From a virus: a DNA stretch of 64,000 nt. How positions within the stretch are numbered: position 1 is the first letter of the stretch; the number at the start of each line of letters is the position of its first letter. The translations under genes were made by a program, and so were the position numbers. The notes below the pieces were generated by a model. That model was given only the letters and a program-made list of their open reading frames with translations. It had not been told where the DNA came from and did no database searches. Below, piece by piece: positions 10,626-35,112 of the stretch. The stretch lies in the IMG/VR virus record IMGVR_UViG_3300044616_000676, positions 1 to 64,000 of that record. One strand, given 5' to 3'.

Positions 10626-10945
10626 CAAAATCAAATTCAAATACCCACCTCCAAATTTGGAGGTCAAGAACTTGGGGGCATTATCATCCCTATACCTACA
10701 ACTGGCATCCTGAATGTAAGAAGAATTTCCCAATATTTCATGCACCTCTTCCAGATAAGCATGAATGGTTGCGTGAGATACAAAAGAACAATCCGTTGGG
10801 AAGTATGGATTTTTACTTTGAGCGCGTATCTAGCAGGGATTGCAGGTTTGACCTCATCAATCGTTCATTTCCATGGTCCTCGCCCAAGCAAAGGGAGCTT
10901 GCAGCACGAAGGAAGACACCGATCCACCCTTTGAAAACAAATTAA
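10622..10945 (+). CDS. Hypothetical protein (107 aa)
   Basis: ATG at 10622 (AGATATGACA) overlaps the terminase stop. The product is rich in aromatic and basic residues, for example WGHYHPYTYNWHPECKKN, and ends in a basic tail. No family recognised. It lies between terminase and a glycosyltransferase. Confidence 0.5.
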   Translation: MTKSNSNTHLQIWRSRTWGHYHPYTYNWHPECKKNFPIFHAPLPDKHEWLREIQKNNPLGSMDFYFERVSSRDCRFDLINRSFPWSSPKQRELAARRKTPIHPLKTN

Positions 10946-10971
10946 AATATGAGCACCGACCATCAAATCGC

Positions 10972-15839: not shown

Positions 15840-16409
15840 TTAAACCTTCTGCCAGCAATGGTCAGGATATTGGATGCCAGTGTTATCTATCGTTTCAAGC
15901 GGCAGATGGACCTTCAAACGTAAAACGCACCCACAGCGGACGCAACCTTGAAGCTCGCTATCTCGGCTGGTGTCAGGCCATCCAATACGTTCTCCCACCC
16001 ATTTTAATGCCGAATGGCAGCTCCAACAGATGCCCACGGGTTTGTTGTCATGGCACTTGGCGCAAATCGCGGCACGCCTTTCTGCCTCCTCTTTCGGGAC
16101 AAACTGCATACCACCTTCTGTCCACTTCTTCACGCTGTTGGCAAAGCGATAAACGTCATCAAGCGTCATGTGGCGTTCAGGCTCGCCAATCTCTCGACAC
16201 TCAATATGCGGGTTCTGCTCGCACATCTCATGGACCACAACGGCCTTCCAGTTGTCAGGGAACTCAATGCCGTTTGCTTCCCATGATTTTGCCACTTTGG
16301 GGTAAATGGCGTTAAGCGATAGGTCTTTGTGGACAATCCCTGTTCGGCTGTCGGTAAAGACAAAACCGGGAGCGGGTGGAGTCGTTGTCTGGTTAGCTAT
16401 GGTTTTCAT
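15840..16409 (-). CDS. Cys-rich zinc-binding-like virion-module protein (189 aa)
   Basis: The N-terminal half holds NWKAVVVHEMCEQNPH and the C-terminal half three cysteine pairs: CAKCHDNKPVGICWSC and CVRCGC. These probably coordinate two zinc ions. It overlaps the start of the giant polyvalent gene's stop by four bases, so it is the distal gene of that operon. A role in assembly or ejection is inferred from position. Confidence 0.65.
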   Translation of the reverse strand: MKTIANQTTTPPAPGFVFTDSRTGIVHKDLSLNAIYPKVAKSWEANGIEFPDNWKAVVVHEMCEQNPHIECREIGEPERHMTLDDVYRFANSVKKWTEGGMQFVPKEEAERRAAICAKCHDNKPVGICWSCHSALKWVGERIGWPDTSRDSELQGCVRCGCVLRLKVHLPLETIDNTGIQYPDHCWQKV

Positions 16410-19400
16410 CTGCGATAAGCTCTCTTTAGAGCACGATCACGCACTTCATCTGCTTTGTCCTGCAAAAACGCTCTGGCGCGTTCTGTGGGCATTTGTAGCG
16501 CACGTTGACCGTAGCGCAGAAGCATATCGCGGTATCCCCTTCCGGTTTCCAGCGAGTAAGCATCAGCCTCTTCCTGAGTCAAACGGCGACGATTGCGACC
16601 TTTGCCAACCATGCGGTATTCGGCATTGGCAGGGGTCAGGAAGATATTGCGAGCATTCAGAGCGCCAAGAATCTTGTATTCGGGTTCAGTTGGACCCATC
16701 ATAAACTCACGGGAACCAGGAATGACGTTGCGTTTGATTTGCTGCCCAAGGATGTCGTAGTATTCCTCGCCAACATAGCGGCGGTAAATCGGGATATGGG
16801 AAGCGGTTTTCTCCCACAAGCCTTCGTATTTGCGAAGTTCTGGCTGAGTGTAGAAGTCAATATCCTTGAGGATACGAGGCACAAATCCGCCAACCCAACC
16901 AGATGCAACTCTGGAAAGGCGATCCAAGTCTCTTTCAGTCGGGTCTTTGGAGGCCAAACGATTACCAACCAAATCTTGAAGGCCGCTAAGAGCAGGGATT
17001 TCCAAGGTGGATTTTACGCCAGAAACCATTCCAGCCACACCTTTGCTCAAGGCACTTTTCTCATCCCATTTTTCAGGAGAGAAACGAACCTGATCGGACA
17101 TGGAACCAATGGCGGAAAGTATCTGATTTAGCGGCCAGTTCTGGTAGTTGAACACATACCAGCGGCCATTGAACTTGAAGCCCATCGTGTATTCCTTCTG
17201 TCCTTTGGCGAGCATTTGCTTCTTCTGGTCTGGCGTCAGGTTGGCCCAACCACCATTCCAAAAGTTGCCACGCTCTTCATCATCCGGCTCATCTTGGATA
17301 GCCTTGATGACGGAATACCCAACCATAAGCATCACAAAGCTAACAATCTGATTACGATAGATCGTTTCGCGGAAAGCATCTTTCCCCTTAATCCTGTCAT
17401 CCTTGGCCTCAATCTGCCGAAGAAGTCCAGCAAACGGGATGAAGCTCAAGCCTTGGTTGAACTTGTTGCTGGCGTAGCGAACGAACTTAGAACCTGTCAA
17501 ACCTGCCGCATTGTAAGCAGCGAATTGACGCAGATAAGCCAAGGAGAGGAAGGTGACAGCCTTGAGGTCTTTATGGCTAATCCAATCCTTCTTCATCTTC
17601 TCCAAATACTCGTCAGCGTTGGACTGACGTTGGGCGAAGAAACCTGTGATGGCATCATAAACAACGCCACCAAAACCCGTTGGGTGCATCGTCATGGCGG
17701 ATTCGGAGGCCAGATAATCGGCATTCTCCATCTTGCCGCCTAGATTATTGATAGCGCGATACATCTCGGCTTCGGCATAAGAATCAACGAGAGCTTTTTC
17801 AGCCTGAGTTTTGGGAGCCTTATTGTCAAAGTAGTCTCGAATTACCTGATCCTTGTATGCCTTTAGGTTGAGCATCTTCTCAGCCTCGATGATCTTGTCT
17901 GTGCTCATGCCAGACATGCGTAGGGCAAGCGAAGCCGTTCCAGCCTTCGTGACCATGACGTTGAAAGCGTCAAGAGCAGTCAGGAGTCGGCTAACGAAAC
18001 GGAGATACACACCGACATAGCGGCGAACCATTCGTGGGTCTTTGGCGAGCTTTTCAGCAAGTAGCTTGTGGCGTTGGAATCGCTGAAGTTGATCGAAATT
18101 ATTTATTTCACTCAGAATGTCGGTTGAACCCGTTCCAAGCAAACCAACATCGCCCGTCCAAAGGTAGCTCCAAGCCCTGCGTCCAGATTGCTTGAATGCG
18201 CCAAGGTAACGAGCAAAACCTTTAAGCATCAGAATGGATTCTTCAATTGCGCCCTGAATGTCGCCTTTGACTAGCTTGGCAAGCATTTTGCGAGTTCCAA
18301 TGGTAGCAATGCTGTATCCACCGTTAAGGAATGCAGCACCAATCGAGAAAATGGTTTGAGGGCCAAAGAGAACGCTGGAAGTCCACCAGTTAGAAATGAT
18401 TTCGCTAACAGGAACGTCCATCGCACCAGCGAGTTCAACAGCAAACTCCATCGCCAGCTTATTGCGCTTGGCGGTGTTCATGTCCTCGTCCTGAAGTTGG
18501 TCGGCAAGTTTTTGAATCCGTTCCTTCTGCTCTTCGGTAAACGAGGTGCTGATGCCGTAGCGTTCGCCCAGAACCTTTATAAGGTCGTCGTTGTTAAAGC
18601 CTCCAAGGTTGACGATTTCAAGAATCTTATTGCGGGATTGTTGGAGTTTCTTCTCCACATCCTCGCTGATTTCATCGCGGTCGCGTGCCTTCTTGATTTC
18701 ATCACGCAACATGCGGTCAAGAATAGTTTGCTTTCGATTCTCCCAAGCCTCGGCGTAAAGGTCAGCAAGGCGTTCCTTTTGCTCATCCGTGAGATTCTGG
18801 AAGGATGGAAGATCGGAAATGGCTTCAAAGATGCGCTGGCGGTATTCGGCAACGTCCTTTGGATTCGATGACAAGATTTTCCGCCAAGGTATTGCGCGTT
18901 CAAGAGGAACAGAGTCGGCTGGACGAGCCTTGTTCATCTCGCGGAGCAAATTACCCAGAGCTTTTGGTCCTTCAAGCATTCTGAAGGCTTCCATGGCTTC
19001 GAGGTCGGCCTTTTCTCGCTCAGCGGCAGTGAATAGACGTTTTGCAACAGTTTCGCTAACATTGAGCGATTTGAGTCTGGCAACAAAATCTTCAAGAATT
19101 ACGGGACTCTTTACTTGGTCACGGAAAGCCTGAATGATCGTGTCTTTATTTGGATTGGTGTCAATTCCAGCAAATCCACTTTGACGCTTCAATCGCTCTT
19201 TAGCAAAAATGATACGATGAGCCTGAGCATCAGCACGCTCACCAACAACAGCCTTGCGTTGCAAAATCTTGTCCTGACGCATGGCTTCACGGGCATCAAT
19301 TTCAAGTTCTGCCGCTTTCCACAAAATGCCTGCGGTTTTCTCATCAGCCCCAAGTTCGACAGCTTTGTTGACGAACGATTTTTCCGTCATTTGATTTGGC

Positions 19401-22400
19401 CCAACACCTTGCTTGACGCGCTCCTTGTAGAGTTCGCGCATGGCGTCCACATTGGGTTTCTTTTCCTTGATGATGAGTGGATCAGAGTAACGCTCTGACA
19501 AGTCTTTGAGGATTGCCTGAGCGGTTCTCTCCGCCTTGGAAACCTGCTCCTCGCTGGATTCCGTCTCACCTTCTTGAGGTGTTTCAATTTCCTTTCCAGC
19601 TTCAGCACGCTTCTTGGCTGTATCAACCATCTTCTTGCGCTTGGCGCGCGTCTTTTTCTGTTCTGGAGTTTTGGCTTCAGAATCCAATCCAAGGAACTCG
19701 GTCATCAAAGCATCGAACTCAGCAAGATCCTTCTCACGAGCCTTGTCTCGCTCTGCTTTTGGCATGCGAAGAATGGCGTTCAGCTCATCAATCTCCTTGC
19801 GTTGCTCTGCGGAGAGTGACGCCTTTGATCCTGTTTTAATGTCCAGCTTGTCGGCTCTAGCATACATTGCTAGGCGACGAAGGATCATTTTTGCCATCTC
19901 CCAGATGGTCTTTCTACGACCTTCAAGACCTTCCTCACCCTCACTTACTAGCTTGGCATATTCATCATCTTCAGCCGCGCTTTCCTGAGCCTCGACTTCA
20001 GCCTGCGTTGTTTCCTCGGCAGCTTTCTCTTCTGCTTTAGTAATGATGTCTGTAATCTTCTCGGTTCCGCCCGTGATGGCGTCAAGTTTGTCTTTGGATT
20101 TCTGCTCTTTTTGAAGTTTAGCTTGATTGAAAAGGTTTCTCCCCCTGTAACGTGGATCAGTTAGTGACTCTTGACGATTTTGAAGGGCTTGACCAGCTCC
20201 AGTTCCAGCATTGTAATAAATAATACCACGCTTCTCAGCCAACTCTAACTCACGCTTACGACGAGGGTTGCGTTCCTTCCTAATTTCATTTGCCAATCTG
20301 TTCTCAATCTCAATTCCAATCTGACTACGAGCAATCGTAATCATATCCGACGAGACATCCTTACTAACTTGCAGACCAACGGCTATCTGAAACTCAGGGT
20401 CTTGTAGAGCTTCAGCAACAACTAGAATGTCATTTGTTTTTGCCATCAAGTCGTCAATGAGCTTAATCGCTGGATCACGGTAAAGAACATACGATTTGAC
20501 GTTATGTTCTGGAATCTCGGTATCCTTGAGAAGTTTGCCTTTGAACTTGGCCTTCTTATCAACACGGCCTTTTCCAGCTTCAGCTAAATCAACCTTGAAC
20601 GATTTTGAAGCCTCTTCCGCATCTTCAATCGGAATCTTAGACGCCTTTGCAGCCCTCGGCATCACAACGACGAATCCAGCACGGCGACCTTCTGGGGTGG
20701 TGACGTTGATTTCGGATGTGTCGGAAAATTGAGCCAGATTGTTTTCAGCATTCTTGATTCGTTCCGAAAGCATTTCTCCGAAAACACCCTCCTTGGCAGA
20801 TGCGTATCCATCACTAATCCATTGAAGAACGATCTCTTGCCATTCACGAAGCACGTTTGCTATCTTCCTGAATGCCGTTTCAGTTAATTGGCCAGTCTTT
20901 TTAAGCTGTATCAAAGATCTAACCAGTTCAGGTAAAACATAGGGATATTGAGCCGCTAGATCCAATAGCTCATTTAAACTAAGGTTGGCTATTTCTGGAT
21001 TATTGTTATAAAGCGATAGGGATGATGCCAGAATCCTCCTGAGAGATTCAGCTTCTAAGTCGTTTAGCGAATCAGCCTTTTGAATTAAAGAGAAGGCAAG
21101 ATTACTTTGTTCACCAAGAACAAATTGATCGAATGAAATTTTTTTGCCAGATTTGATCCATTGATTCCTCAAGCCGATCAAATCCGACAAGTGAATCAAC
21201 TCCTCAATGACTGAATCTTTTGTGTATTGAGATGCAGCCTGCGGAGCCATCTTTTGCAACTCATCGAAACGCTCTTGTGATAAGGAGTATCCAATGATGA
21301 TGCTGCCATCTGGCATAGCACGGACTTGTAGAGGCGCATTGTCATCAATTCTGATTCCATTGTTTGTAGCGAAGTTGGATGCAGGCCGAAGCACCCGTTG
21401 GACGAATTTTTTAGAGACGCCATTAATCTCACCAAGAGAGGGAGATTTTTCGGTGGATTTGCGAATAAGTTCATTGAATGGATTGTCTTTTTCAAACGCT
21501 TGTATCTCTACTTCTTGCTCAGGAATAATTTGCTCACCCTCCTGCAACACCGCCCCGTTGTCCTCAAACAAGTCCTGAAGCACGTTGCTGAACTCGTCCT
21601 GCGTGACTCCGGGCATCAGTTCTTCGGTCTTTGCGAACAGTTCGCCAATCGGCACCGCCACACTTGTATCCTTGGGCATCGCTTCGTAAGCACGACGAAT
21701 GGCTTCACGCACGTCCATGTCTCTCTCGCTGTAAATCGTAGAGCGTGCAGCCTCGTTGCCTGCGCTGGTTGCAGCATCGGTGTCGGATGCGAATTGAGGA
21801 CGGGAGAAGCGGATGTCTGGAGAAGCGGCTTGGAAACGCTGGGAAAGCGGGATCACGTTGCCATCGGCATCGCGGGTGATGGGGTCGGCTGACTTGATCT
21901 GCTCGGGAGAGAAGACGATGACTTCTTCGATGTTTCCGTTTTCGTCTGCCGTGAAAGCCGCATCCTTCCGCTTGGCTTTCAAGATTTCCAAGTCCTTATC
22001 AGTGATGATGAGCGGGAACGATCTGCTAAAACCGTATTCCTCCCGCTGCTCTTGCGCAAAATCCGTTCCGCTTGCTCCATATATCCCAACAGGATTGAGC
22101 ATCTTGGCGTATAAGCGAAGAGTCTTCATGCGGCGTCCAGTCTCCGCATACTTCTCCTTGGCTAGCTTTGATTCGTATTCATGGGTATGCGCGATGTTTG
22201 GCCCTTTTCCTCGCGCCTTCTTGGCAAGGAAGAGTTTTTCAGGCTCCATCCAGACACCCTTTCCACTCCAGCCAGCATCAGAGTGCGGCTGCTTATACCC
22301 ACCCATCTTGAACACATTGAAATCACGGAAGGTGTGATGCACCAACGGCAGCGAGGTGTCGTAGTTCGCGGCAGCGGCAGCCTCATCCACCATCCGCTGC

Positions 22401-25400
22401 GCCTTCTCCATGTCGCCAGCCTCAACCGCTGCGAGGTATTCGGCGTCCATTTCAGGGGTGATTCCAGCAGTCGGAGCGATTGCACTCAACTTCACTTTAC
22501 CACCGTCTTTTAAGGTAAAACTACCAAGTGGCACCGCAGGACGCTTCATCGCGTTACGCATCAGTCGAGCAACGTCCTTGAGGTTCTTCAGCGTAGGTTC
22601 ACCCTTTTGTCCGGTCAAACGCCTCCAGACACGCTTGAGGAACTGAACGATGTCGTCCCAAACGCCTCCAGTTGGAATCTTTTCCATCTTCTCAAAGTCG
22701 CGCATCAGAAGCTCTTCAAGGGCTTCAAACCGACTTTCAAGATTCGTTCTCCAGTCAGCGTATTCATCGTAAGTCTCAACGAGTTTTGCAATCTGCTCGT
22801 CAGAGTAGGCACGCATCAGGTATCCACGAAGCTCACGCTTCTCGGCCATTGTAAAGAGAGAGATAGCCTTATGCCCGTTCTCATGGGCAATGACACGACG
22901 AGCAGCAGCTTGCTCCGGCGTAAGGCCAAGCATTGTTGCCAAGTTTCGATCCAAGTTGGAAACCTGAATCTGCTTCGCAAAAATGAGCGTCTGGCCGTTC
23001 TCGTAAAGACCTTCGATGTTCTTCTCGGTTTGAAGGCGAGCGTAAGCCGATGGGAAAAGACGCGCATTCGCTTTGTCAGCCAAGAAAGCCTCCAAAGACT
23101 CATACACGTTCGTCAAATAAGCGTTCGGAATCTCGCCAGAGTTAGTCAATGCCTCGCGTGCCGTTTCGACATCAACCTTGGTGACAGTGCCTTGAATAGC
23201 ATCCTCCTTCTGCGGACCTACTACGGAGTTGAGGGAGCTTTTGGTGGCATTGTCTTGCTTCTCCTGACGCTTCTTTGCGGCCTCGTCAGCAGCAGCTTGC
23301 TTCTTTTTCGCAGCGGCAGCTTTTGGCCCTAAATTCTCCCTTGACGAGATTTCAGTTTCAGGTGAAACTTCGCCAACCATGGGAATCGACCCTCCCACGG
23401 GTTCAGCCTGAACACCTCGCGTAGCCCCCGGCTCCACGGCCACGGAGTCGGGGGTTGGTTTTTCGACTGCGGTGGGTTCAGCCACAGGCGCAGTCACAGA
23501 AGGTTGCTTTTCAATGCGCGTAAAGTTGACGTTCCTTGGAAGGGTCGTGATGTTTTCTGAGCCTTTAGGAATACGAGCAATACCTTCTGGATTTGTGAAC
23601 TCAGCGCGAACTCTGCCATCAGAAAGAATCTTTTTTACACGATAGGTATTTCCTTTGAAGGATACTTCATCACCAATGCGCAACTCAGTTGATTTAACCG
23701 TAGCTGCCTTTGTGGTTTGAGGCTGGAAAACGTAGAGTTCGCCTTGTTTGACGTAGCCTTTGGGGAGGGTGATGCCGTAGGTGTCCACGGCTTCGGAGGA
23801 GACTGGTTTATTTTCACGAAATGCTCTTCGCGCTCGTCTATCTAAAATCGCATATCCACGATCTGATGGAACGCCAGTGACATCCGCCCAAGCCTTTACC
23901 TCAATGGACTTCCCGCCCCGCTGAATAGCCTTCCGACGTTCGGGGGTCATTAGTTTCTCCGGCACGAAAATCACCCCATCCCCTTGATGTTTTGCTCCTT
24001 TAAGTTTTGAAACGCGCAAAGCCGCGCTTTCTTCTGAAGAAAGCTCCTCCGGCTTCGTCACATCCCGAACAACAGGCGCAGCCATCCCTTCAACCTCCGC
24101 CGCCCTCTCAGCAGGCGTCAGTTTCGGCCTTTGATCTTCTGGCATCGCTGCCACGCCAGCTTCGGTGATGATGTTCTGCCCATCCACTTGCTCAACAAGC
24201 CCTTGGTCAACAAGCGACTGAACCTGCTCAGGCGTTGCATTGTTGTCCCGAACGGCGACGAGCGCAGGAAGATTATCAACCAGAGGGGCTGCGGCAAACG
24301 GGTCTGCCGCAACCTCCGGTGAAGGCATTACTTCTTCTTTGACTTCGCCTTCCGCTGGACTGAGTAGCTGATCGCGAGCGCCTGCGCTTTCGGCTTCCCG
24401 GCTTTCAATTCGGTCTTGAGGTTCTTCATAAACGCTTTCTTCGCTGGGGACTTGAGCAGGGGCATATAGTTCTGGTTCTGGTGTTAGTGTGGGTTCTTCC
24501 ACAGTCGGAATGACTGCGGCTTGCTCCATTGTTGGAGAAGGCGTTACTTCAGGCGCAACCTCTTCAGCCGCTTGCTCAGGCTGAATTGTTGGCTGGGACG
24601 TTTTGGGAAAGATTTCTTTAAGCGTTGCATCGAAACCAGCTTGGGCTTTAGCTGATTCTGAACTTCCTGCTGCTTCAAGGGATTTTGCGGCATCTGTGTT
24701 AAGCTGAACTGCAACCTCATCTGGCGAAGGCATCGAAGGCAATTCCGGTTGTTGAGGGGGAATAACAGCCGTTTTGCCATCAGGGTCCACAACCGTAGTT
24801 CCACCCGCCTCCATAGCTGCCAATTTTTCTTCATTGGTCTGATCTGGAACGGTGTCTTTTGGAATAGCCCCAGCTTCAGCTTGCAGGTCTTTTTGAATTT
24901 GCGTCTGCCGTTCTGGTGGAGTGGGGCGAAGAGCTTTGATTCCGCGAGCAATCGCAGTTGGCCCAAGTCCAGCAGCACCCATCATGCCAGTCATAGCCAT
25001 CGTCGCAGGCGCAACTTCCTTGAAGGATTTGATGTAATCGTCCAAAGTTCTTTCTTCCAAAGGAACGCTTTCAGGCGATTCTCCTCGCATCACGCCTTCT
25101 TCAAATTGTTTTTGAATGCGTTGCTGTTCAACGCCCGTCACAGCTTCCGTTCCAATTTCAGAAACCAAAGCTCCCGCACCAGCCAATGCCGCTTTAGTGC
25201 CAGTAACTTTTCCAAGTGCATTGGAAGCAAGCTCCATTACGCCATTCTTTCCACCAAGAGCACGACGAATATATTTGCCAGCGCCACCTAAAGCTAGGTT
25301 GCCAAGTGCCTCAGGGCCAGCTTCGGCAGCGCCAAACTTGCGAGCCAAAGGAAGCAATTCTTGATATGCTTCTTCTTTTTCCTGTTCTGTGGGTTCACGG

Positions 25401-25933
25401 TTAAGATTTTCCGCAAAGAAAGAGTCAATTCGATCTTTAGCATCATCAAGGAATTGAGCACCCGCCATGCGATATGCCATCAAAGCAGAAGTGGCAGCAG
25501 CAGCACCGCGAGCGGCCATTGGGCTTTTTGACAAAGCAAGCGTTCCTGCGGCAGCGCCCATACTTGGAATCAATGTAGCCCCAGAAAAGCCAAGAGAAGG
25601 AGTGGCTTCACGAATAGTTGAGGAAACTGTGGAAATATCTCCGCTTGCAGCGGCCTCTTCTTCCTCTTTAGCCAACTCATCTTGTAAGGCTTGCATTTCT
25701 TGGCGGCGAGCAAAGTATCCCTCACTACGCTTCCAAGGATTGTCCAAACCTTCCCACGCTTGAGACAACGAAGCCATTGTCGTTGTAGGCAATGAAGTTG
25801 CGGCTCGACCAAGCGCAGAAGCAGTTTCGGAAATATCCAAAAATGGTTTCTCTTTGACTTCTTTATATTGATCCAACCAAGAGTCGTCTTTGACTTCGGG
25901 ATATTGAGAAAGCCATGAAGGTGTTTCAGCCAT
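16406..25933 (-). CDS. Giant phage polyvalent protein with zincin-like and ADP-ribosyltransferase-like domains
   Basis: 3175 residues. The N-terminus carries the tandem motif SWLSQYPEVK / SWLDQYKEVK (residues 5-27), then Ala/Gly-rich amphipathic segments and a long Pro/Glu-rich linker. A zincin-like HENGH lies at 1017-1021. An ART-PolyVal-like domain follows at about 1195-1380: LVHHTFRDFNVF at the start, then VIVFSPEQIKSAD and SPDIRFSR at the end. Coiled-coil and LPD-like regions follow (YYNAGTGAGQALQ), and the C-terminal 350 residues include a hydrophobic segment near 2860. Polyvalent proteins of short-tailed phages are packaged in the capsid and delivered into the host. Direct evidence for packaging is absent. 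Confidence 0.85.
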   Translation of the reverse strand: MAETPSWLSQYPEVKDDSWLDQYKEVKEKPFLDISETASALGRAATSLPTTTMASLSQAWEGLDNPWKRSEGYFARRQEMQALQDELAKEEEEAAASGDISTVSSTIREATPSLGFSGATLIPSMGAAAGTLALSKSPMAARGAAAATSALMAYRMAGAQFLDDAKDRIDSFFAENLNREPTEQEKEEAYQELLPLARKFGAAEAGPEALGNLALGGAGKYIRRALGGKNGVMELASNALGKVTGTKAALAGAGALVSEIGTEAVTGVEQQRIQKQFEEGVMRGESPESVPLEERTLDDYIKSFKEVAPATMAMTGMMGAAGLGPTAIARGIKALRPTPPERQTQIQKDLQAEAGAIPKDTVPDQTNEEKLAAMEAGGTTVVDPDGKTAVIPPQQPELPSMPSPDEVAVQLNTDAAKSLEAAGSSESAKAQAGFDATLKEIFPKTSQPTIQPEQAAEEVAPEVTPSPTMEQAAVIPTVEEPTLTPEPELYAPAQVPSEESVYEEPQDRIESREAESAGARDQLLSPAEGEVKEEVMPSPEVAADPFAAAPLVDNLPALVAVRDNNATPEQVQSLVDQGLVEQVDGQNIITEAGVAAMPEDQRPKLTPAERAAEVEGMAAPVVRDVTKPEELSSEESAALRVSKLKGAKHQGDGVIFVPEKLMTPERRKAIQRGGKSIEVKAWADVTGVPSDRGYAILDRRARRAFRENKPVSSEAVDTYGITLPKGYVKQGELYVFQPQTTKAATVKSTELRIGDEVSFKGNTYRVKKILSDGRVRAEFTNPEGIARIPKGSENITTLPRNVNFTRIEKQPSVTAPVAEPTAVEKPTPDSVAVEPGATRGVQAEPVGGSIPMVGEVSPETEISSRENLGPKAAAAKKKQAAADEAAKKRQEKQDNATKSSLNSVVGPQKEDAIQGTVTKVDVETAREALTNSGEIPNAYLTNVYESLEAFLADKANARLFPSAYARLQTEKNIEGLYENGQTLIFAKQIQVSNLDRNLATMLGLTPEQAAARRVIAHENGHKAISLFTMAEKRELRGYLMRAYSDEQIAKLVETYDEYADWRTNLESRFEALEELLMRDFEKMEKIPTGGVWDDIVQFLKRVWRRLTGQKGEPTLKNLKDVARLMRNAMKRPAVPLGSFTLKDGGKVKLSAIAPTAGITPEMDAEYLAAVEAGDMEKAQRMVDEAAAAANYDTSLPLVHHTFRDFNVFKMGGYKQPHSDAGWSGKGVWMEPEKLFLAKKARGKGPNIAHTHEYESKLAKEKYAETGRRMKTLRLYAKMLNPVGIYGASGTDFAQEQREEYGFSRSFPLIITDKDLEILKAKRKDAAFTADENGNIEEVIVFSPEQIKSADPITRDADGNVIPLSQRFQAASPDIRFSRPQFASDTDAATSAGNEAARSTIYSERDMDVREAIRRAYEAMPKDTSVAVPIGELFAKTEELMPGVTQDEFSNVLQDLFEDNGAVLQEGEQIIPEQEVEIQAFEKDNPFNELIRKSTEKSPSLGEINGVSKKFVQRVLRPASNFATNNGIRIDDNAPLQVRAMPDGSIIIGYSLSQERFDELQKMAPQAASQYTKDSVIEELIHLSDLIGLRNQWIKSGKKISFDQFVLGEQSNLAFSLIQKADSLNDLEAESLRRILASSLSLYNNNPEIANLSLNELLDLAAQYPYVLPELVRSLIQLKKTGQLTETAFRKIANVLREWQEIVLQWISDGYASAKEGVFGEMLSERIKNAENNLAQFSDTSEINVTTPEGRRAGFVVVMPRAAKASKIPIEDAEEASKSFKVDLAEAGKGRVDKKAKFKGKLLKDTEIPEHNVKSYVLYRDPAIKLIDDLMAKTNDILVVAEALQDPEFQIAVGLQVSKDVSSDMITIARSQIGIEIENRLANEIRKERNPRRKRELELAEKRGIIYYNAGTGAGQALQNRQESLTDPRYRGRNLFNQAKLQKEQKSKDKLDAITGGTEKITDIITKAEEKAAEETTQAEVEAQESAAEDDEYAKLVSEGEEGLEGRRKTIWEMAKMILRRLAMYARADKLDIKTGSKASLSAEQRKEIDELNAILRMPKAERDKAREKDLAEFDALMTEFLGLDSEAKTPEQKKTRAKRKKMVDTAKKRAEAGKEIETPQEGETESSEEQVSKAERTAQAILKDLSERYSDPLIIKEKKPNVDAMRELYKERVKQGVGPNQMTEKSFVNKAVELGADEKTAGILWKAAELEIDAREAMRQDKILQRKAVVGERADAQAHRIIFAKERLKRQSGFAGIDTNPNKDTIIQAFRDQVKSPVILEDFVARLKSLNVSETVAKRLFTAAEREKADLEAMEAFRMLEGPKALGNLLREMNKARPADSVPLERAIPWRKILSSNPKDVAEYRQRIFEAISDLPSFQNLTDEQKERLADLYAEAWENRKQTILDRMLRDEIKKARDRDEISEDVEKKLQQSRNKILEIVNLGGFNNDDLIKVLGERYGISTSFTEEQKERIQKLADQLQDEDMNTAKRNKLAMEFAVELAGAMDVPVSEIISNWWTSSVLFGPQTIFSIGAAFLNGGYSIATIGTRKMLAKLVKGDIQGAIEESILMLKGFARYLGAFKQSGRRAWSYLWTGDVGLLGTGSTDILSEINNFDQLQRFQRHKLLAEKLAKDPRMVRRYVGVYLRFVSRLLTALDAFNVMVTKAGTASLALRMSGMSTDKIIEAEKMLNLKAYKDQVIRDYFDNKAPKTQAEKALVDSYAEAEMYRAINNLGGKMENADYLASESAMTMHPTGFGGVVYDAITGFFAQRQSNADEYLEKMKKDWISHKDLKAVTFLSLAYLRQFAAYNAAGLTGSKFVRYASNKFNQGLSFIPFAGLLRQIEAKDDRIKGKDAFRETIYRNQIVSFVMLMVGYSVIKAIQDEPDDEERGNFWNGGWANLTPDQKKQMLAKGQKEYTMGFKFNGRWYVFNYQNWPLNQILSAIGSMSDQVRFSPEKWDEKSALSKGVAGMVSGVKSTLEIPALSGLQDLVGNRLASKDPTERDLDRLSRVASGWVGGFVPRILKDIDFYTQPELRKYEGLWEKTASHIPIYRRYVGEEYYDILGQQIKRNVIPGSREFMMGPTEPEYKILGALNARNIFLTPANAEYRMVGKGRNRRRLTQEEADAYSLETGRGYRDMLLRYGQRALQMPTERARAFLQDKADEVRDRALKRAYRR

Positions 25934-27970: not shown

Positions 27971-28927
27971 TCAAAGAGTTACGAGTCCGGGTTGATTCCA
28001 GCCAGTTCCAAAGCATCCACCCATGATGCCCCAATTGACGAATGAGGTGCTAGGGATGCCGCCACCACGGGCATATTTGGCTTCTTGATTCAAGAGATTG
28101 ATACAACGCGCCCAATTTTCCTCGGCCTTCTGGCTGTCAGAACCATCCTCAAACTTCCAAGCCCAGAAACCAGCGCGAAGGGCAGGAATGTTGCCGGGAA
28201 TCACCCAATCGCTTTCATTCCGCATACGGATGAATCTACGCTGGCAAATCAAGCGAATGGCGTTCTCAGCTTGTCCGGTTTGATAACGGCGGTAGGAAGG
28301 ACGGGATTCGCCGGGGTAGTAGGAACCAATGAGGTTGTTTCCTGCGTCATACAAAGTCCATGCTTTCTGCATAACCGTGGAAGGATCAGGAGTAGCCTGA
28401 ATGCCAGTCACAACAGAGAATTGATTCGTCGTGTTCACGAAAGGAGCGGCACAAGTGACCGATTCACCGAGTAGGCCATCAGCATCAAAAATGTCAGCGC
28501 CGTTTTGATCTTTGCCGAACAAACGGATTTGCTTACCGTCATCAGCAGCATTGGTCGCCACTTTCAAAACGCCCACAGTCTGAATGTTGGCTTGAGTGGC
28601 AAATCCATCCCCCATGTCAATCAAGACGCCAGCCCAATTCAACGAGTCCAGAACTTCGCCGGGGCCGTTAATCATGTAGGTGTGAAACTGCGTATAGGTT
28701 AACGCAGGAACACGGTTGTAAGTCATTGCCAAAACCGCCTCAAACTCGTATGGCAGTGTGATAAACCCATCCGAGCTAGGGAAGTCCACCTCAAGAATTG
28801 ACCCCTTCCACTTGCCCGATTTCGTAACACGCTCGCAAACCTCATTGAGAATCTGGAGAAAACTCTGTTCTCCAAACTGAGGTTCAAGTTGTTGCCGAAC
28901 ATCGGCTACTGTGAGTTGGGTGTTCAT
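27971..28927 (-). CDS. Putative head-tail or tail structural protein (318 aa)
   Basis: Begins with a helical segment (VADVRQQLEPQFGEQSFLQILNEVCERV), then a beta-rich middle and a helical C-terminus containing QTGQAENAIRLICQRRFIRM. The layout suits connector or tail-tube proteins of short-tailed phages, but no specific family is recognised. It sits one base upstream of the internal virion protein gene. Confidence 0.5.
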   Translation of the reverse strand: MNTQLTVADVRQQLEPQFGEQSFLQILNEVCERVTKSGKWKGSILEVDFPSSDGFITLPYEFEAVLAMTYNRVPALTYTQFHTYMINGPGEVLDSLNWAGVLIDMGDGFATQANIQTVGVLKVATNAADDGKQIRLFGKDQNGADIFDADGLLGESVTCAAPFVNTTNQFSVVTGIQATPDPSTVMQKAWTLYDAGNNLIGSYYPGESRPSYRRYQTGQAENAIRLICQRRFIRMRNESDWVIPGNIPALRAGFWAWKFEDGSDSQKAEENWARCINLLNQEAKYARGGGIPSTSFVNWGIMGGCFGTGWNQPGLVTL

Positions 28928-28936
28928 TGCAAGTTC

Positions 28937-29626
28937 TTAACGAATCCTTTGTTGTTGTTGCTCACGAAGACGACTTTGAACAGCCGAACGTGCCGCCATA
29001 ACTGGACTTTTAGAAATGTTCCCAGATGCATCCATGCTTATCCCAGAACCCATATTCTTCCTGTTGTATTCATTGCGAATCTTGTCAAACTGACCGGAAG
29101 ATTTGGCGTTAGCAATGTTTTGCTCACGAACGCCAAGTAAAGGATTTTGGGGAATAGGGCTTGTTGATTTGTTACCCATTGCCGATTGAGCAATCTTGGG
29201 TAAAAACCCAAGTGAACCCATTAAGCCTGAAGTTGGCAAATTTAAATTACTTGCTGTTTGTGCAGCTTGTTGCTGTTGCTGCATAGCCGGATTTGTTGCA
29301 GGATTCCGATTATACATGGAATTGAATTGATATTGATTGAGTCGAGGATTATACATCAATCCTTGATCACGGCCAATAGTAGCCTCACGATTGATGTCGC
29401 CCATAGACCGAGTTTTATCCCTCTGAGCTAAGTAAAAAGCATCAAGTCCGCCGCCCAAGTTAGCACTACGATTGCCTGCGCTGCTACCAACGCTAGGATC
29501 AACTCGACGGGCCGTTCTGCCTGTTCCGGGTCCAGTGCCTTCTTCGTATTCAACATTACGAGGGCGTGCATCAATGCGACGACCTTGATTTGGTCTAACA
29601 AATTGGGGGAAAGTTGACTCTGCCAT
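28937..29626 (-). CDS. Gln/Asn-rich predicted virion protein (229 aa)
   Basis: Basic N-terminus (FVRPNQGRRIDARPRN), a central disordered NPAMQQQQQAAQTASN stretch, and a C-terminus ending SRLREQQQQRIR. It lies ten bases from the next structural gene. Low-complexity composition prevents a family call; virion or assembly factor is a positional inference. Confidence 0.5.
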   Translation of the reverse strand: MAESTFPQFVRPNQGRRIDARPRNVEYEEGTGPGTGRTARRVDPSVGSSAGNRSANLGGGLDAFYLAQRDKTRSMGDINREATIGRDQGLMYNPRLNQYQFNSMYNRNPATNPAMQQQQQAAQTASNLNLPTSGLMGSLGFLPKIAQSAMGNKSTSPIPQNPLLGVREQNIANAKSSGQFDKIRNEYNRKNMGSGISMDASGNISKSPVMAARSAVQSRLREQQQQRIR

Positions 29627-29680
29627 AATACCTTTAGATTATTCCCCTAAAGGACGGATTGGCAACGAGGATTTTAGGGC

Positions 29681-30535
29681 TTATTCCAAGGTATATGGCA
29701 TTCCCAGACGTTCCAAAGCCATGCACAATCCTTGTTTTAACTCTTCTGGAGTAATGACTGAAGCCCAATGCTTTGTCATTTCGACCAATCGAGGGTGCAT
29801 TAGATCGCCGTAAATCTCCAGAAAGCCTATGTAGTAATTGGCTACTTTCTCAGTGGTGAGAAGTGGAAAAGTTCTTTGGGGCCAGTTAAACCTATGATTC
29901 CAGCCCATTTTAGGGTGGCAAACAACCAACCCGCCGTTTTGCCGAACCTTTTCAGCCATATACCATTCTTCTCCGCCGAATCCTTTAAAGTGAGGATTTA
30001 TGGCAAGTGCATTGGCTCGAATGAATGAGAAACAGCCCATACCTTGTGCCGGAACCTCAAACGGTTCGCCTGATTTCATTCCGTTCTTGTTGTCACCCCA
30101 GATGCCAAAATCATGCCCTCGCCATACAGGATTGATCTGCTCGCTTGTGGCCCTCAAGTTGTCATACAAAAGCGGACCTGTAAGCATGTTCTTGGAGCTA
30201 AAATTGCGTGACCAGTATTCCATCATGGCGGCAATAAAGCCCGTTTGAAGCAGCACATGGCAATCTAGGCCAAGAATAATGTCGCCCTTTGCCAGCTTGA
30301 AAACGTCATACTTCACAAAGCTACTCTTGCGGTCAGTGACATCCACCACGCGCATTCCCGGCACATCCTTGGCGAAATGCTTCAACTGCTTGCCGTGTGC
30401 GCTGTTAGGGTTATTGTCTAAGACAAGGAACTCAGTGTTATCAGGCAAATCTTGATGCATTCGGATTGACTGAATGGAAAAGAAAACGCCATCATAATCG
30501 TCATACGTTGCCATTGATACTGTCAGCGGCGTCAT
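29681..30535 (-). CDS. GT2/GT27-type glycosyltransferase resembling polypeptide GalNAc-transferases
   Basis: 284 residues. GDIILGLDCH holds a DxH metal/nucleotide site (D91, H93), the same form as the DSH site of polypeptide GalNAc-transferases. GGEEWYMAEKVRQNGG (187-202) aligns without gaps to their GGEN...V.Q.GG catalytic loop, and is followed by a CHP...NHRF histidine region where those enzymes have PC...GHVFR. It belongs to a four-gene set whose last member encodes a Thr/Pro-rich mucin-like protein. The proposed role is adding a sugar to virion Thr/Ser residues. The donor sugar is unknown, and a general GT2 enzyme remains possible. Confidence 0.75.
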   Translation of the reverse strand: MTPLTVSMATYDDYDGVFFSIQSIRMHQDLPDNTEFLVLDNNPNSAHGKQLKHFAKDVPGMRVVDVTDRKSSFVKYDVFKLAKGDIILGLDCHVLLQTGFIAAMMEYWSRNFSSKNMLTGPLLYDNLRATSEQINPVWRGHDFGIWGDNKNGMKSGEPFEVPAQGMGCFSFIRANALAINPHFKGFGGEEWYMAEKVRQNGGLVVCHPKMGWNHRFNWPQRTFPLLTTEKVANYYIGFLEIYGDLMHPRLVEMTKHWASVITPEELKQGLCMALERLGMPYTLE

Positions 30536-31200
30536 GGTAAAGATTGAGGGAAATTGTTAAAACCGTGAGTTACTCCAGATGCGTTAAACAACTGGATTCC
30601 AAGTCTTTGAGAGTAATGGAGAGCGCGATCAAAAAGCGATCTTAATTCTTGTTCTCCTAATCTCAACGGGTCTGGAGTTCCATGTCCGTAAATAGCATCA
30701 ACCACGCACCCTTCAAAAAAAGAATCAACCCATTGATTCACCGAGTTCATTTTCTGATTGTTGAATTTGTTATGTGGTGCTGGACATTGATTTTCAAGCC
30801 ATTTACGAACTTTTTCAGGTGTGTAATCATGGTCAAAACCAAGTGTGTAAATTCGTTTTGGTTTTATCTTGTCAAACAACCAGTAAAGACCTTGAAAAAA
30901 GATAGTATATCCTGCTCTATGTTGAGGGTAAGGATGCACTTCTCCCAAAGTGGCAAATATTGTTTTTGCTGAATCTGCAAAATAAGGGTAATCAATTTTT
31001 GTGTGCGGCAAATCACAAGGAGGGAAATTCTCAGGAGGAAAATCGCCGGGGTAAATCCAATAATCTAAACCTTGAGGAACAAAAACTCGCCAAGCATTAT
31101 TTACCGCACATACAAGATCAACTTTGCTTCTTAAATCGTTTGCTTTTTTTGCTGATAGACCGCTTCCAACATATAAGACGCTTTCAATTTGATTTGTCAT
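30532..31200 (-). CDS. Putative sugar-transfer or nucleotide-sugar-binding protein (222 aa)
   Basis: Overlaps the GalNAc-transferase-like gene by four bases. VLYVGSGLSAKK near the N-terminus and LVCAVNNAWRVF resemble the nucleotide-binding start of DUF115/sialyltransferase-like GT folds. RIYTLGFDHDY follows near residue 120. The association with glycosyltransferases supports a sugar-transfer role, but no catalytic residue can be assigned. Confidence is for a real gene; the function is tentative. Confidence 0.55.
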   Translation of the reverse strand: MTNQIESVLYVGSGLSAKKANDLRSKVDLVCAVNNAWRVFVPQGLDYWIYPGDFPPENFPPCDLPHTKIDYPYFADSAKTIFATLGEVHPYPQHRAGYTIFFQGLYWLFDKIKPKRIYTLGFDHDYTPEKVRKWLENQCPAPHNKFNNQKMNSVNQWVDSFFEGCVVDAIYGHGTPDPLRLGEQELRSLFDRALHYSQRLGIQLFNASGVTHGFNNFPQSLP

Positions 31201-31775
31201 AGTTTCATATAAATTGCCAACTGGATATTAAACTCCATCCACCATTCGGGGTGATATGGTTTAATGATACCATCGTCGCACAATTTAATAGCGTCAATAT
31301 GATGACGAAATTCTGTTCCAAGATCATGCGCTGAAATAATAGAATCCTTGGGTAACAGTGGAGCGAATTGTTTTAACTCTCTGCTTTTGCAACCGCCATC
31401 GCAATATACCCATGTTGGTTTTTGGTCTATTTTGTTTAAAATAGCTTCTTGTGTTGACAGCAAATTCTCATCCGCTTGTAGAAACTCAACACCAAGTCGG
31501 TTCAAAACATGGCTGTGATGACGATTTACATGGTCAACTGTAACTACTGGAATGTTGCGATGGATGCCCCAAAGTCCAAAAATAGTAGTTACACATCCAG
31601 AACCCGTTCCAATTTCCACAATGGATTGAATTTGTGGATTCGCCAGCATCACTCGATCAATGACCGAGTATAGCCAGAAATTATGCTGCATGTAATTCCC
31701 TAAAAGAGTTGTGTGCCAAGGTATTGCTTTTTCACTTTTTTCATTATAGGGCCGAGCGTCTGGAACGAATGTCAT
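31197..31775 (-). CDS. Class I SAM methyltransferase-like protein (CmcI-like)
   Basis: 192 residues with IVEIGTGSG (52-60), the SAM-binding glycine loop, then VVTVDHVN as the acidic second strand and YCDGGCKSRELKQFAPLL / SIISAHDLGTE as later motifs. This order matches methyltransferases linked to sugar tailoring (the CmcI/Methyltransf_24 type). It overlaps the preceding sugar-cassette gene by four bases and ends the run of modifying enzymes next to the Thr-rich protein. Confidence 0.65.
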   Translation of the reverse strand: MTFVPDARPYNEKSEKAIPWHTTLLGNYMQHNFWLYSVIDRVMLANPQIQSIVEIGTGSGCVTTIFGLWGIHRNIPVVTVDHVNRHHSHVLNRLGVEFLQADENLLSTQEAILNKIDQKPTWVYCDGGCKSRELKQFAPLLPKDSIISAHDLGTEFRHHIDAIKLCDDGIIKPYHPEWWMEFNIQLAIYMKL

Positions 31776-31776
31776 A

Positions 31777-32445
31777 TTATGGTGGCGCGGTAGTCGTGGT
31801 CGTTGTTGGCGGAGGCGTAACAGTGGTCGTGGTCGTGCTACTTGTTGTAGTAGTCGTAGTAGTCGGGCAAGTTGAAATGGCCGCTACTCCATTTGTGTAA
31901 AGATAAGTGGTAAATCCATAGATGAAATAACCACTGAATGAACTTGTTAGACGATCATCTGTGAAAGCAGGATCAGAACTATTAAACGTAGAATTGGCTG
32001 TGTAAATAGTTACAGAGTTGCCATTGCAATCCACCCCAGTATAAGCATACCCCGGAGGTGGCGTTGTTGTGGTGGTGGAGCTTGTGGTCGTGCTAGAAGT
32101 CGTCGTAGAACTTGTGCTCGTAGTAGTAGTTGAGCTTGTAGTAGTAGTTGAGCTTGTAGTCGTGCTAGAAGTTGAAGTTGTTGGCGGGGGCGTTGTGGTC
32201 GTTGTTGGAGGTGTTGGACCAATATAAGTAACTACGCCACCAACAATTGTAAGATATGTCCCAACTTGGATTGGAACAGGTTGCACAGGGCTAGGCAAAC
32301 TTCCAGTAAGGCTAGTTCCAGTCACTCTGGGCGAATCTAACTGCGAAATCACAACGCCATTCGTAGATTGAAACGTGGTAATAGAATCATTTCCCCACAC
32401 CCAAGGGCGGTTTGTGATCTGAGAATTGCCTGTGTATTCGCTCAT
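31777..32445 (-). CDS. Thr/Pro/Ser-rich mucin-like virion protein
   Basis: 222 residues. A folded N-terminal part (1-75) is followed by a Thr/Ser/Pro tract at about 78-131, a compact domain (132-190; GYAYTGVDCNGNSVTIYT) and a second tract at 193-222 ending PPPTTTTTTAPP. The tracts are almost only Thr, Ser and Pro, like O-glycosylated mucin stalks. It sits directly next to three sugar or methyl-transfer genes and is coupled to structural genes by a four-base overlap upstream. Proposed as the O-glycosylated surface fibre or capsid decoration; the glycosylation is inferred. Confidence 0.7.
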   Translation of the reverse strand: MSEYTGNSQITNRPWVWGNDSITTFQSTNGVVISQLDSPRVTGTSLTGSLPSPVQPVPIQVGTYLTIVGGVVTYIGPTPPTTTTTPPPTTSTSSTTTSSTTTTSSTTTTSTSSTTTSSTTTSSTTTTTPPPGYAYTGVDCNGNSVTIYTANSTFNSSDPAFTDDRLTSSFSGYFIYGFTTYLYTNGVAAISTCPTTTTTTTSSTTTTTVTPPPTTTTTTAPP

Positions 32446-33236
32446 TGAATGACGCGCTTTGGTGAAACTGGCGGGAATATCGTAGCCTTACGCCGATAAT
32501 ACTGACCATTCACCAAGTCCACATCGTCTTCAATGACAAACGGTGCCCAATCAAGGAAATTGGTAGCAGGGAAGATTTGCTTGTTGGGATTCCACCCACC
32601 CGTTTCGTCCACCGTGCCTTGTCCATACACTTTTTGAGCACCCGGAATGTTGTTTTCAAAAATCACCTTGGGATGAAGGCATCGAGGGAAGTTAATTTCT
32701 TTCCCAAGAAAGTCACCATTGATGTCAGTCGGAATGGGCTGAACATGAGTTATCTCATTTTGCGAATAAGGCACATCGCTCAGGTATTCCTCAATCTTTA
32801 CCACCGAGGATACGTTTGGCGTTGGCTTATAGACATACTTGGCGAAGTAGCGGGGAGCAGTTTCAGTGGTTGTCCCATTGAAAACAGCCTGCGGGAACAC
32901 TGTGGTTTGGTAAATGTCTAACGAATAAAGCACTCCCGGCCAAGGATACTGACGAGTGGCAAACGATGTGCGGAAAGGTGTCTGACGTTGAGCTGGAGTC
33001 TTAGATTTGGCGTAGTAAAACCAAATGTCATCCCCCTCTTTGGATGAGTCGCAATAACGATAGTTGGCAAAATCTTGCCGCCGTGGAAGGGTTGCAATGG
33101 TCGCTTGCTTGTAAAGCTCACCAAGAGTCGGAGTCGCATCCAGCTTTAACTGGTTCGCGTCTTGCCAAACCCGAACGGAAAACTCGTCAGGATTAGGTGT
33201 CGGGATGACTTCTAACTTGATTTCAGGCGAGGCCAT
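32442..33236 (-). CDS. Predicted virion structural protein (264 aa)
   Basis: Beta-rich, with many Tyr and Pro residues (RQYPWPGVLYSLDIYQTTVF). No enzyme motif. Overlaps the mucin-like gene by four bases and abuts the upstream structural gene. It may be a tail or decoration protein holding the mucin-like stalk; that is positional inference. Confidence 0.55.
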   Translation of the reverse strand: MASPEIKLEVIPTPNPDEFSVRVWQDANQLKLDATPTLGELYKQATIATLPRRQDFANYRYCDSSKEGDDIWFYYAKSKTPAQRQTPFRTSFATRQYPWPGVLYSLDIYQTTVFPQAVFNGTTTETAPRYFAKYVYKPTPNVSSVVKIEEYLSDVPYSQNEITHVQPIPTDINGDFLGKEINFPRCLHPKVIFENNIPGAQKVYGQGTVDETGGWNPNKQIFPATNFLDWAPFVIEDDVDLVNGQYYRRKATIFPPVSPKRVIQ

Positions 33237-33976
33237 TAGGAAATGTTAGGCGGACTGGTAGCGATAATATCGCCTTCTTGATATTCAGCAGGAAGGTAAC
33301 GAGGCGTTGCGCTGGCTCCACGGTCAAACAGCCAAAATGTCTTGTTAAGTAGCGTCTGACGAAGGGGGAAGTGGTTGATTTCGTCGGAAACGCTCATATT
33401 GAATGAGTCAGCGGCAAGAGTATATGGATAAGGACTTGTCAAAGTTGCGACTGGTGGATTAGCAACTGGTATAATAGTTTTCACACCATTAGCTAATGCA
33501 GCAGATGGAGATGGTATAATTTGAGGCGCTGACCAAACTGATCCCGGACCACTTGTGGGAACTTCGGTAACATCAGTTCCAATACCCGTGCTGGCTGTGA
33601 AAATGTCTCTAAACTCAGACGACCAAACGCGCATTTGTTCATTCGACACAATCACCGATCCAGCCGTGATGTTGGTGGTAAAGTCAATCGCAGACCCGCC
33701 CTCGGTCAAAGATAGCTGGCAAGTCGCTCCACTAGCTGCAATGACATAATAAGCCGTATTCGCAGTAAGCCCACTACCCCCTACAATATTCGTAAAAGTA
33801 ACCTGCATCCCGTTCGCCAAAGTTGCGCCTGTAATGGTTACTACGTTCGTCGTGGCATTCCCCGTTACGGAAGCATAAGCTGTCTGGGAGCCAGAAAGGA
33901 AAACGTCAATAACGCCCTCCTGCTTGGCAAAGGTCAAATTGTTGGACCTAATAAGGTAAAGTGTAGTTCCGGCCAT
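33236..33976 (-). CDS. Predicted virion structural protein with FCCH-like beta repeat (246 aa)
   Basis: The start at 33976 (MAGTTLYLIRSNN) is preferred over one 12 codons upstream. Residues about 40-115 contain the ANGMQVTFTN...LTANTAYYVIAASG...LSLTEGGSAI pattern, a small beta domain widespread in phage tail proteins. A related module occurs in the 1000-residue protein at 43141-46143. It is the promoter-proximal gene of the leftward operon down to 15840. Confidence 0.6.
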   Translation of the reverse strand: MAGTTLYLIRSNNLTFAKQEGVIDVFLSGSQTAYASVTGNATTNVVTITGATLANGMQVTFTNIVGGSGLTANTAYYVIAASGATCQLSLTEGGSAIDFTTNITAGSVIVSNEQMRVWSSEFRDIFTASTGIGTDVTEVPTSGPGSVWSAPQIIPSPSAALANGVKTIIPVANPPVATLTSPYPYTLAADSFNMSVSDEINHFPLRQTLLNKTFWLFDRGASATPRYLPAEYQEGDIIATSPPNIS

Positions 33977-33995
33977 GATTTTGCATTTTAACCGC

Positions 33996-34024
33996 TTGAC
34001 AGGGGAAGGCAAGTGGGATTACTG
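33996..34024 (+). promoter_or_regulatory. Weak candidate promoter ahead of the HNH gene
   Basis: TTGACA at 33996-34001 is followed after 18 bases by TACTGT (34020-34025), which keeps the most conserved -10 positions (T, A and final T). It would begin transcription just before the hairpins at 34041. Weak evidence because the -10 is only three of six. Confidence 0.3.
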
Positions 34025-34452: not shown

Positions 34453-35112
34453 ATGAGTCAAACACCACGCTACAAACAAGAAATCGAAGCCTCTGGCCTT
34501 AGCCAGAAAGAGTGGTATGCGAAGGTTTACCTGAAGTCGGATCACTGGAAGGCGCTGAAGAAAGCCAAGGCGAAGGAGGTTGGCCGGAAGTGCGAGATTT
34601 GCGGAGTGACTAAAAGGCTGGAGTTTCACCACGACAACTACCGTGATATTTACGATGTGACGACGGCTGACTTGAGGATTCTGTGCAAGACACACCATCA
34701 CGAATTTCACTTCGGACCCAAAAAGAAAAAGGCTGTAAAGTTTGACATCAGCACCCTCAATTTGAGTTCATCAAATCTGGAAAACGATGTCTTGGCATTG
34801 ATTTCAAATCTCAAGAAATCACCTCGCAACCAAAGGCTCAACATCATCATCAAGGAAATGCGGAAAAGGAAGATGGGCGAGTCGGCCATCAATCCTATCA
34901 TCGCCCTGAAATCTGGCAAAAAGGCGAGAAGGATGCGACTATCAATGAACGGCGGAAAATGGAGAACCGAAGACTTCGACCATTATTGGTATAAATTTAG
35001 AAATGGCAGGCAAATCACCCGCCAAATGTGCGAAGAGTTTCAAACTATCTTCAAGTCGAACCTCCGAGCAAGGCATGTTAGAAGGCTTAAATACATGGCT
35101 GAAAATTCGTAG
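34453..35112 (+). CDS. HNH endonuclease-like protein (219 aa)
   Basis: The HNH core lies early: CEICGVTKRLEFHHDNYRD then LRILCKTHHHEFH (residues 49-92), with CxxC and C..H zinc ligands. The C-terminal 120 residues are basic and helical and probably bind DNA. It is the only rightward enzyme amid leftward structural operons and is preceded by the inverted-repeat stretch, like two other HNH genes in this window. A homing-type mobile gene is likely. Confidence 0.8.
   Translation: MSQTPRYKQEIEASGLSQKEWYAKVYLKSDHWKALKKAKAKEVGRKCEICGVTKRLEFHHDNYRDIYDVTTADLRILCKTHHHEFHFGPKKKKAVKFDISTLNLSSSNLENDVLALISNLKKSPRNQRLNIIIKEMRKRKMGESAINPIIALKSGKKARRMRLSMNGGKWRTEDFDHYWYKFRNGRQITRQMCEEFQTIFKSNLRARHVRRLKYMAENS

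Follow-up and report, generated by a model that had tools for sequence, protein, structure and literature searches.

An uncultured tailed phage probably carries, in its late region, a modular cassette that encodes a stalk protein together with the enzymes that modify it. In this cassette the gene for a protein with long threonine/serine/proline (Thr/Ser/Pro) tracts is followed by genes for two variable enzymes and for a glycosyltransferase (GT) whose modelled fold most resembles the polypeptide GalNAc-transferases. Across related loci the type of stalk and the set of enzymes change together, while the catalysis, the sugar, the order in which the enzymes act, and the presence of the stalk in the virion are inferred.

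Gene order and the stalk protein

The analysed stretch (the window, 64,000 nucleotides) belongs to the IMG/VR record of an uncultured phage, 64,032 bases in length, and its phage-like genes include a primase/helicase, an exonuclease, a tail fibre, and a virion structural protein. On the minus strand, the genes for p258, p264, the Thr/Ser/Pro protein, a methyltransferase-like protein, a second enzyme of 222 residues, and the DxH GT follow one another, with gaps or overlaps of only a few nucleotides between them. The features of the locus are as follows (L numbers denote related loci and contigs).

33236-34012, minus strand: p258 (258 aa), lies upstream and is not part of the cassette, weakly matches a tail-fibre PHROG
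32442-33236, minus strand: p264 (264 aa), conserved upstream protein of unknown function, left border of the cassette
31777-32445, minus strand: Thr/Ser/Pro stalk protein (222 aa), proposed acceptor
31197-31775, minus strand: SAM methyltransferase-like protein (192 aa), proposed glycan tailoring, variable slot
30532-31200, minus strand: second variable-slot enzyme (222 aa), sialyltransferase-like candidate, identity unproven
29681-30535, minus strand: DxH GT-A glycosyltransferase (284 aa) with a GT27-like fold, proposed initiating O-glycosyltransferase
28937-29626, minus strand: conserved downstream protein (229 aa), right flank of the cassette
27971-28927, minus strand: p318, conserved downstream protein (318 aa), right flank of the cassette
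29678-32327, minus strand: block swapped in L329, bounded by the DNA homology breakpoints against L329

The initial annotation described four coupled genes at 29681-32445, and all four open reading frames (ORFs) were found there. They are spaced by 1 nt and then by two 4-nt overlaps, and the start of the stalk gene overlaps the stop of p264, so that the genes look translationally coupled. No match to the GT, p264, or a 760-aa ORF was found among isolate phages, leaving the locus without a cultured relative, and the primase/helicase is only ~36% identical to isolate phage proteins among the best matches listed. Elsewhere in the window, the late region contains one unannotated ORF of 3175 aa (16406-25933, minus strand), and there are also a C5 cytosine DNA methylase (57744-58502, minus strand; PF00145, E=1.8e-17) and a further GT2 domain outside the cassette in an 828-aa protein (10873-13359, plus strand; PF00535, E=2e-5; phrog_14945, E=2.4e-13).

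The stalk protein consists of an N-terminal anchor (residues ~1-76), a Thr/Ser/Pro tract (77-131), a small globular segment, and a second Thr/Ser/Pro tract (194-219). Both of the tracts that had been pointed out in this protein are present and are not due to chance: the first is an uninterrupted run of 55 residues and the second contains two further runs, whereas the next longest such run in any ORF of the window has 10 residues. Thr is encoded by all four of its codons (ACT 16, ACG 14, ACA 13, and ACC 8), indicating that the repeat is maintained at the protein level and not by DNA slippage. Among relatives the anchor is conserved and the tract is swapped. The location of the protein in the virion has not been shown and is inferred from its neighbourhood only.

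Fold and motifs of the DxH glycosyltransferase

The D91/H93 site and the GGEEWYMAEKVRQNGG loop that had been read in the DxH GT are indeed there. Relatives are encoded on 105 viral stretches that fitted a search pattern, of which 80 were kept and 51 aligned; the D and H of the DxH motif, G186, E188, W211, H213, R214, and F215 are invariant in these 51 viral relatives (residue numbering in this alignment is one lower than numbering with the start Met). The D and H of DxH are also invariant in 22 mixed bacterial and viral relatives, and across phage and bacterial relatives the GGEE and WxHR(F) motifs vary little or not at all. No ricin-type lectin domain is present in the GT, with the 284-aa protein ending after the catalytic domain, and no membrane segment was found in the GT, the second enzyme, or the methyltransferase-like protein (maximum KD19 of 1.68, 0.85, and 1.14, respectively).

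An AlphaFold (AF2) model of the GT, built from the alignment of its relatives, has a pLDDT of 92.3. The top 50 Foldseek matches to this model are all polypeptide GalNAc-transferases, as are the best 29 entries in a VIA-align comparison with the PDB (Z 20.8-24.4, 245-263 residues, 2.5-3.0 Å), with the first entries of other kinds being GlfT2 (Z 18.7) and chondroitin polymerase (Z 18.1). By structure, therefore, the enzyme best matches polypeptide GalNAc-transferases and not the lipid- or LPS-directed GT2 enzymes. Sequence profiles gave a different ranking, in which TarP (E=2e-6) and chondroitin synthase (7e-5) scored better among PDB profiles than GalNAc-T4 (E=0.06), although the GalNAc-T4 match covers both motif regions. 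PF00535 falls below its own cut-off for the window GT, which makes the protein a weak member of the GT2 clan by sequence, and from sequence profiles alone, without any GT27-specific profile, its closest entries are of the GT2 type rather than GT27. The initial annotation had held that its reading would fail if the best structural and profile matches were only to lipid- or LPS-directed GT2 enzymes; the structural comparison, which GalNAc-transferases lead, upholds the reading, but the profile comparison, which GT2-type enzymes lead, does not decide between GT2 and GT27. With structure pointing to GT27 and sequence pointing weakly to GT2, we suggest that the enzyme works like GT27 and do not claim membership of that family. 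Its identification as a polypeptide GalNAc-transferase-like GT-A enzyme is well supported by the predicted structure, with catalysis inferred. A UDP-GalNAc donor, which the strict sense of 'mucin-type' would require, is unproven, and the identity of the sugar is likewise an inference.

The phage GT shares with GT27 polypeptide GalNAc-transferases a GT-A fold over the whole catalytic domain, the DxH metal site, the GGE(E/N) loop, a distal His/Arg motif, and pairing with Thr/Ser/Pro-rich acceptors. It differs in lacking the lectin domain that is usual, if not universal, in GT27, in having no signal anchor, and in residing in the prokaryotic cytoplasm rather than the Golgi. Identity in the structural alignment is only 13-16%, and the donor sugar of the phage enzyme is unknown.

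Stalk type and enzyme set across related loci

Close relatives retain p264, the Thr protein, the variable enzymes, the DxH GT, and p318 in this order, even though in most of them p264 and p318 have diverged to ~33-40% identity. We collected loci by p264, blind to the tract and the GT, and tabulated the protein directly downstream and the accompanying enzymes. Tract classes were assigned by a script with thresholds of our choosing, except that L333, L374, and L376 were left unclassified by the script and were assigned by eye. Among the 40 p264 loci, 20 have both a Thr tract and a DxH GT, 20 have neither, and none is mixed (Fisher 1.5e-11, uncorrected for kinship). On the supported branches of a p264 tree, 7/7 independent pairs agree with the association (sign p=0.016). 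Wherever enough downstream sequence is present, a Thr stalk is accompanied by a DxH GT, which is either the GT27-like enzyme or a 487-aa GT-methyltransferase fusion with a DAH motif whose GT part is a distant homologue of the GT27-like enzyme (E=1.8e-7).

Other stalks have other partners. Ser/Pro stalks pair with TylF, GT9, and KpsS-like (capsule-type) enzymes or with a methyltransferase-GT29 fusion, and Ser-rich stalks with a 335-aa protein and a methyltransferase. The partner of collagen-like stalks is either a 2OG-Fe(II) oxygenase (PF13640, E=4.5e-14) or a protein of 205 aa. Stalkless anchors occur with paired GT-like genes or with nothing; in L331-L336, L348, and L350, such anchors of 57-59 aa are followed by paired GT-like genes without a Pfam match and by methyltransferases.

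One close relative provides a natural swap. The p264 of L329 is 94% identical to that of the window, and their DNA matches as far as position 32328, around codon 39 in the stalk gene. From there it is unrelated until 29677, where the GT stop codon borders on 182 bp that are 99.5% identical. Between these breakpoints, a collagen-like stalk and a 2OG-Fe(II) oxygenase replace the window block. A collagen-like protein followed by a prolyl-hydroxylase-like 2OG-Fe(II) oxygenase was seen in L328 (9532-10095), L329, and L491-L494, in two phage backgrounds, and the collagen-like proteins of L491-L493 have a different N-terminus and a common C-terminal segment. Since the oxygenase gene immediately follows that of a collagen-like protein in other phages as well, this pair, too, moves as one unit. 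Collagen-like phage fibre proteins are known (PMC3368898), and they resemble the present case in that a low-complexity stalk is involved and the alternative stalk at this locus is collagen-like. The difference here is that a 2OG oxygenase gene accompanies the collagen-like stalk, which shares its anchor with the Thr stalk.

The slot between stalk and GT is variable. It holds a methyltransferase and the sialyltransferase-like candidate in the window and in L082-L087, where the methyltransferase-like copies are 79% identical and in the same position. Elsewhere it holds the sialyltransferase-like candidate with TylF (L012), GT9 with a pyruvyltransferase (L003), a 304-aa protein with a methyltransferase (L006 and L011), GT2 (L008 and L014), or GT2 with a methyltransferase (L013), and methyltransferases fused to GTs fill it in L366 and L367. 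Profile matches in these relatives include GT9 (E=8.5e-14), pyruvyltransferase (4e-17), TylF (1e-7), and GT2. For the window itself, the methyltransferase and sugar-transfer assignments of the initial annotation remain tentative, with only sub-threshold matches: PF13578 at E=0.029 and a weak PCMT match for the former, and PHROG sialyltransferase at E=0.18 for the latter. The second enzyme belongs to a conserved family, A3, but its AF2 model is poor (pLDDT 57), its profile retrieved nothing credible from the PDB, and it is marginally similar to the GT29 domain of L366 and not similar to the enzyme of L338. Matches to salicylate monooxygenase were dismissed as chance. Judged from the profile matches, the slot enzymes across these loci are largely of glycan-building or glycan-capping kinds.

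These enzymes could instead remodel the host's surface polysaccharide or LPS (serotype conversion or superinfection exclusion), with the Thr stalk being an unrelated low-complexity spacer. The resemblance of slot enzymes to LPS and capsule enzymes (GT9, KpsS-like, and pyruvyltransferase) and the preference of the GT sequence profiles for GT2 would fit such a role. However, the absence of a membrane segment from the GT, the second enzyme, and the methyltransferase-like protein, and of a flippase or GtrB-like gene from the cassette, speaks against it, and it leaves unexplained both the joint change of stalk type and enzyme set and the arrival of the collagen-like stalk with a 2OG oxygenase. We therefore regard it as unlikely.

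We give equally little credence to the proposal that stalk and enzymes are merely linked, as an old cassette spread by recombination in which each gene serves its own purpose. Cassettes do move as blocks, so the association at the level of the clade is partly linkage, and HNH-type endonuclease ORFs are found in some slots. Linkage alone would not account for the pairing of Thr stalk and DxH GT persisting while the middle enzymes are replaced, for two distantly related DxH GTs both accompanying Thr stalks, or for the same pair of neighbours in unrelated phages and bacteria whose tract proteins are unrelated. In the window (34453-35112, plus strand), L006 (7266-7943), L349, and L374, ORFs for HNH-type endonucleases lie next to the cassette slot or within it; they are possible agents of cassette exchange. 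The earlier proposal that the enzymes modify the tracts has strong comparative support, and further support from bacteria, as regards the link between enzyme and tract, with modification itself remaining an inference.

Relatives outside the clade and a model for stalk modification

A scan for 12 consecutive Thr codons, blind to the GT, returned 120 loci, and the GT is present in 6/120 of them, in every case downstream of the tract and in the same orientation, with four close behind or abutting it. In an Ala-codon control the GT was found in 0/120 loci, although the control is more GC-rich (0.56 vs 0.43). Among bacterial GT loci, 34/80 have an ORF with a Thr/Ser/Pro tract within 5 kb, compared with 0/20 control regions taken from these genomes (p=1e-4). 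Many bacterial tract proteins have a twin-arginine-like signal and lie just upstream of the GT, and in several scanned bacteria the GT is fused to HprK-related or PqqD-like domains. In the bacterial loci L389-L468, Thr-tailed proteins, mostly with a Tat signal (LPxxWxKPVV...PAHA and then a TTT tail), adjoin the GT, and together they look like an undescribed protein-glycosylation system. At the end of a Verrucomicrobia MAG contig (L389) the GT is 59% identical and the ORF upstream resembles the second 222-aa enzyme; p318 was not found in that MAG genome. The literature searched yielded no phage or bacterial GT27-like/Thr-tract system and no 'HPr-rel-A' paper, which does not prove that none exists elsewhere. 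In L043 (1915-8852), the GT lies in a tail-like region where the adjoining ORFs are 2OG-like and sulfotransferase-like and a protein with a PTTTTTTPEP tract is encoded upstream.

The GT family is not always paired with tracts. Many T4-like phage relatives (37-46% identical) lie in a replication-gene cluster without a Thr tract, and in L022, L027, L056, and similar T4-like contigs the GT gene is flanked by that of a RecB-like nuclease and by other genes of replication, again without a Thr tract in the vicinity. Because these relatives are found among recombinase, helicase, primase, dNMP kinase, and polymerase genes, and virus-encoded DNA-modifying GTs are known (Pyle et al. 2024, as cited in PMC12619734), we considered that the GT adds a sugar to a hypermodified base of phage DNA and that its adjacency to the stalk is incidental, but the window GT has no adjoining base-modification gene, lies among late genes, is swapped jointly with the stalk, and has its best fold match in protein-directed enzymes, making this the least credible of the alternatives.

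The preferred reading, protein-directed modification of the stalk, has partial precedents. Modification of Cnm, a threonine-rich adhesin of Streptococcus mutans, requires PgfS of the Pgf system, a GT-A enzyme whose gene lies beside cnm (PMC5856776). In the phage, too, a GT-A gene is located downstream of a Thr-rich protein gene, directly so in the arrangement that matches Pgf, and O-glycosylation of a Thr-rich repeat with the help of partner genes is proposed. Unlike the phage cassette enzymes, which are soluble (no membrane segment) and have a swappable slot, PgfS is membrane-bound and acts on cell-wall proteins with membrane partners and an epimerase (PMC5856776); the phage cassette has no such membrane-bound GT with PMT-type partners. 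Mycobacteriophage virions carry glycans at the C-termini of capsid and tail-tube subunits (Freeman et al. 2023, as cited in PMC12619734). Glycans on phage structural proteins, proposed for the present cassette, are the common element, and the dedicated Thr stalk with cassette exchange is the difference.

In the model that we propose, the conserved N-terminal anchor of the 222-aa protein would carry the Thr/Ser/Pro stalk, and the DxH GT, as a soluble GT-A enzyme, would use a nucleotide sugar to attach the first sugar to many of the stalk's Thr and Ser residues in the cytoplasm, before assembly. The methyltransferase-like and sialyltransferase-like enzymes may then extend or cap the glycan, whose structure is also inferred, and exchange of the middle slot among phages would vary it.

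More broadly, the evidence leans modestly towards matched stalk-modifier modules being a general phage strategy, in which Thr, Ser/Pro, and collagen-like stalks are mounted on one virion anchor, each with its own modifying enzymes. The Thr version would then belong to a GT27-like family that also glycosylates Thr-tailed, mostly Tat-exported bacterial proteins, an undescribed prokaryotic mucin-like system. If so, fibre and chemistry could be swapped in one recombination, with the modifiers being either a hydroxylase or O-glycosyltransferases whose glycan-capping genes are interchangeable. The cassette offers a concrete and testable enzyme and acceptor pair for O-glycosylation of phage proteins, a natural swap series that reveals how enzymes and stalks are matched, and a prokaryotic enzyme family whose closest structural counterparts are the animal mucin-initiating transferases. 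Soluble single-domain enzymes with simple Thr-rich substrates would make useful tools, and for the phages themselves, sugar-coated or hydroxylated stalks could influence adsorption, diffusion, receptor mimicry, and shielding from host or immune recognition.
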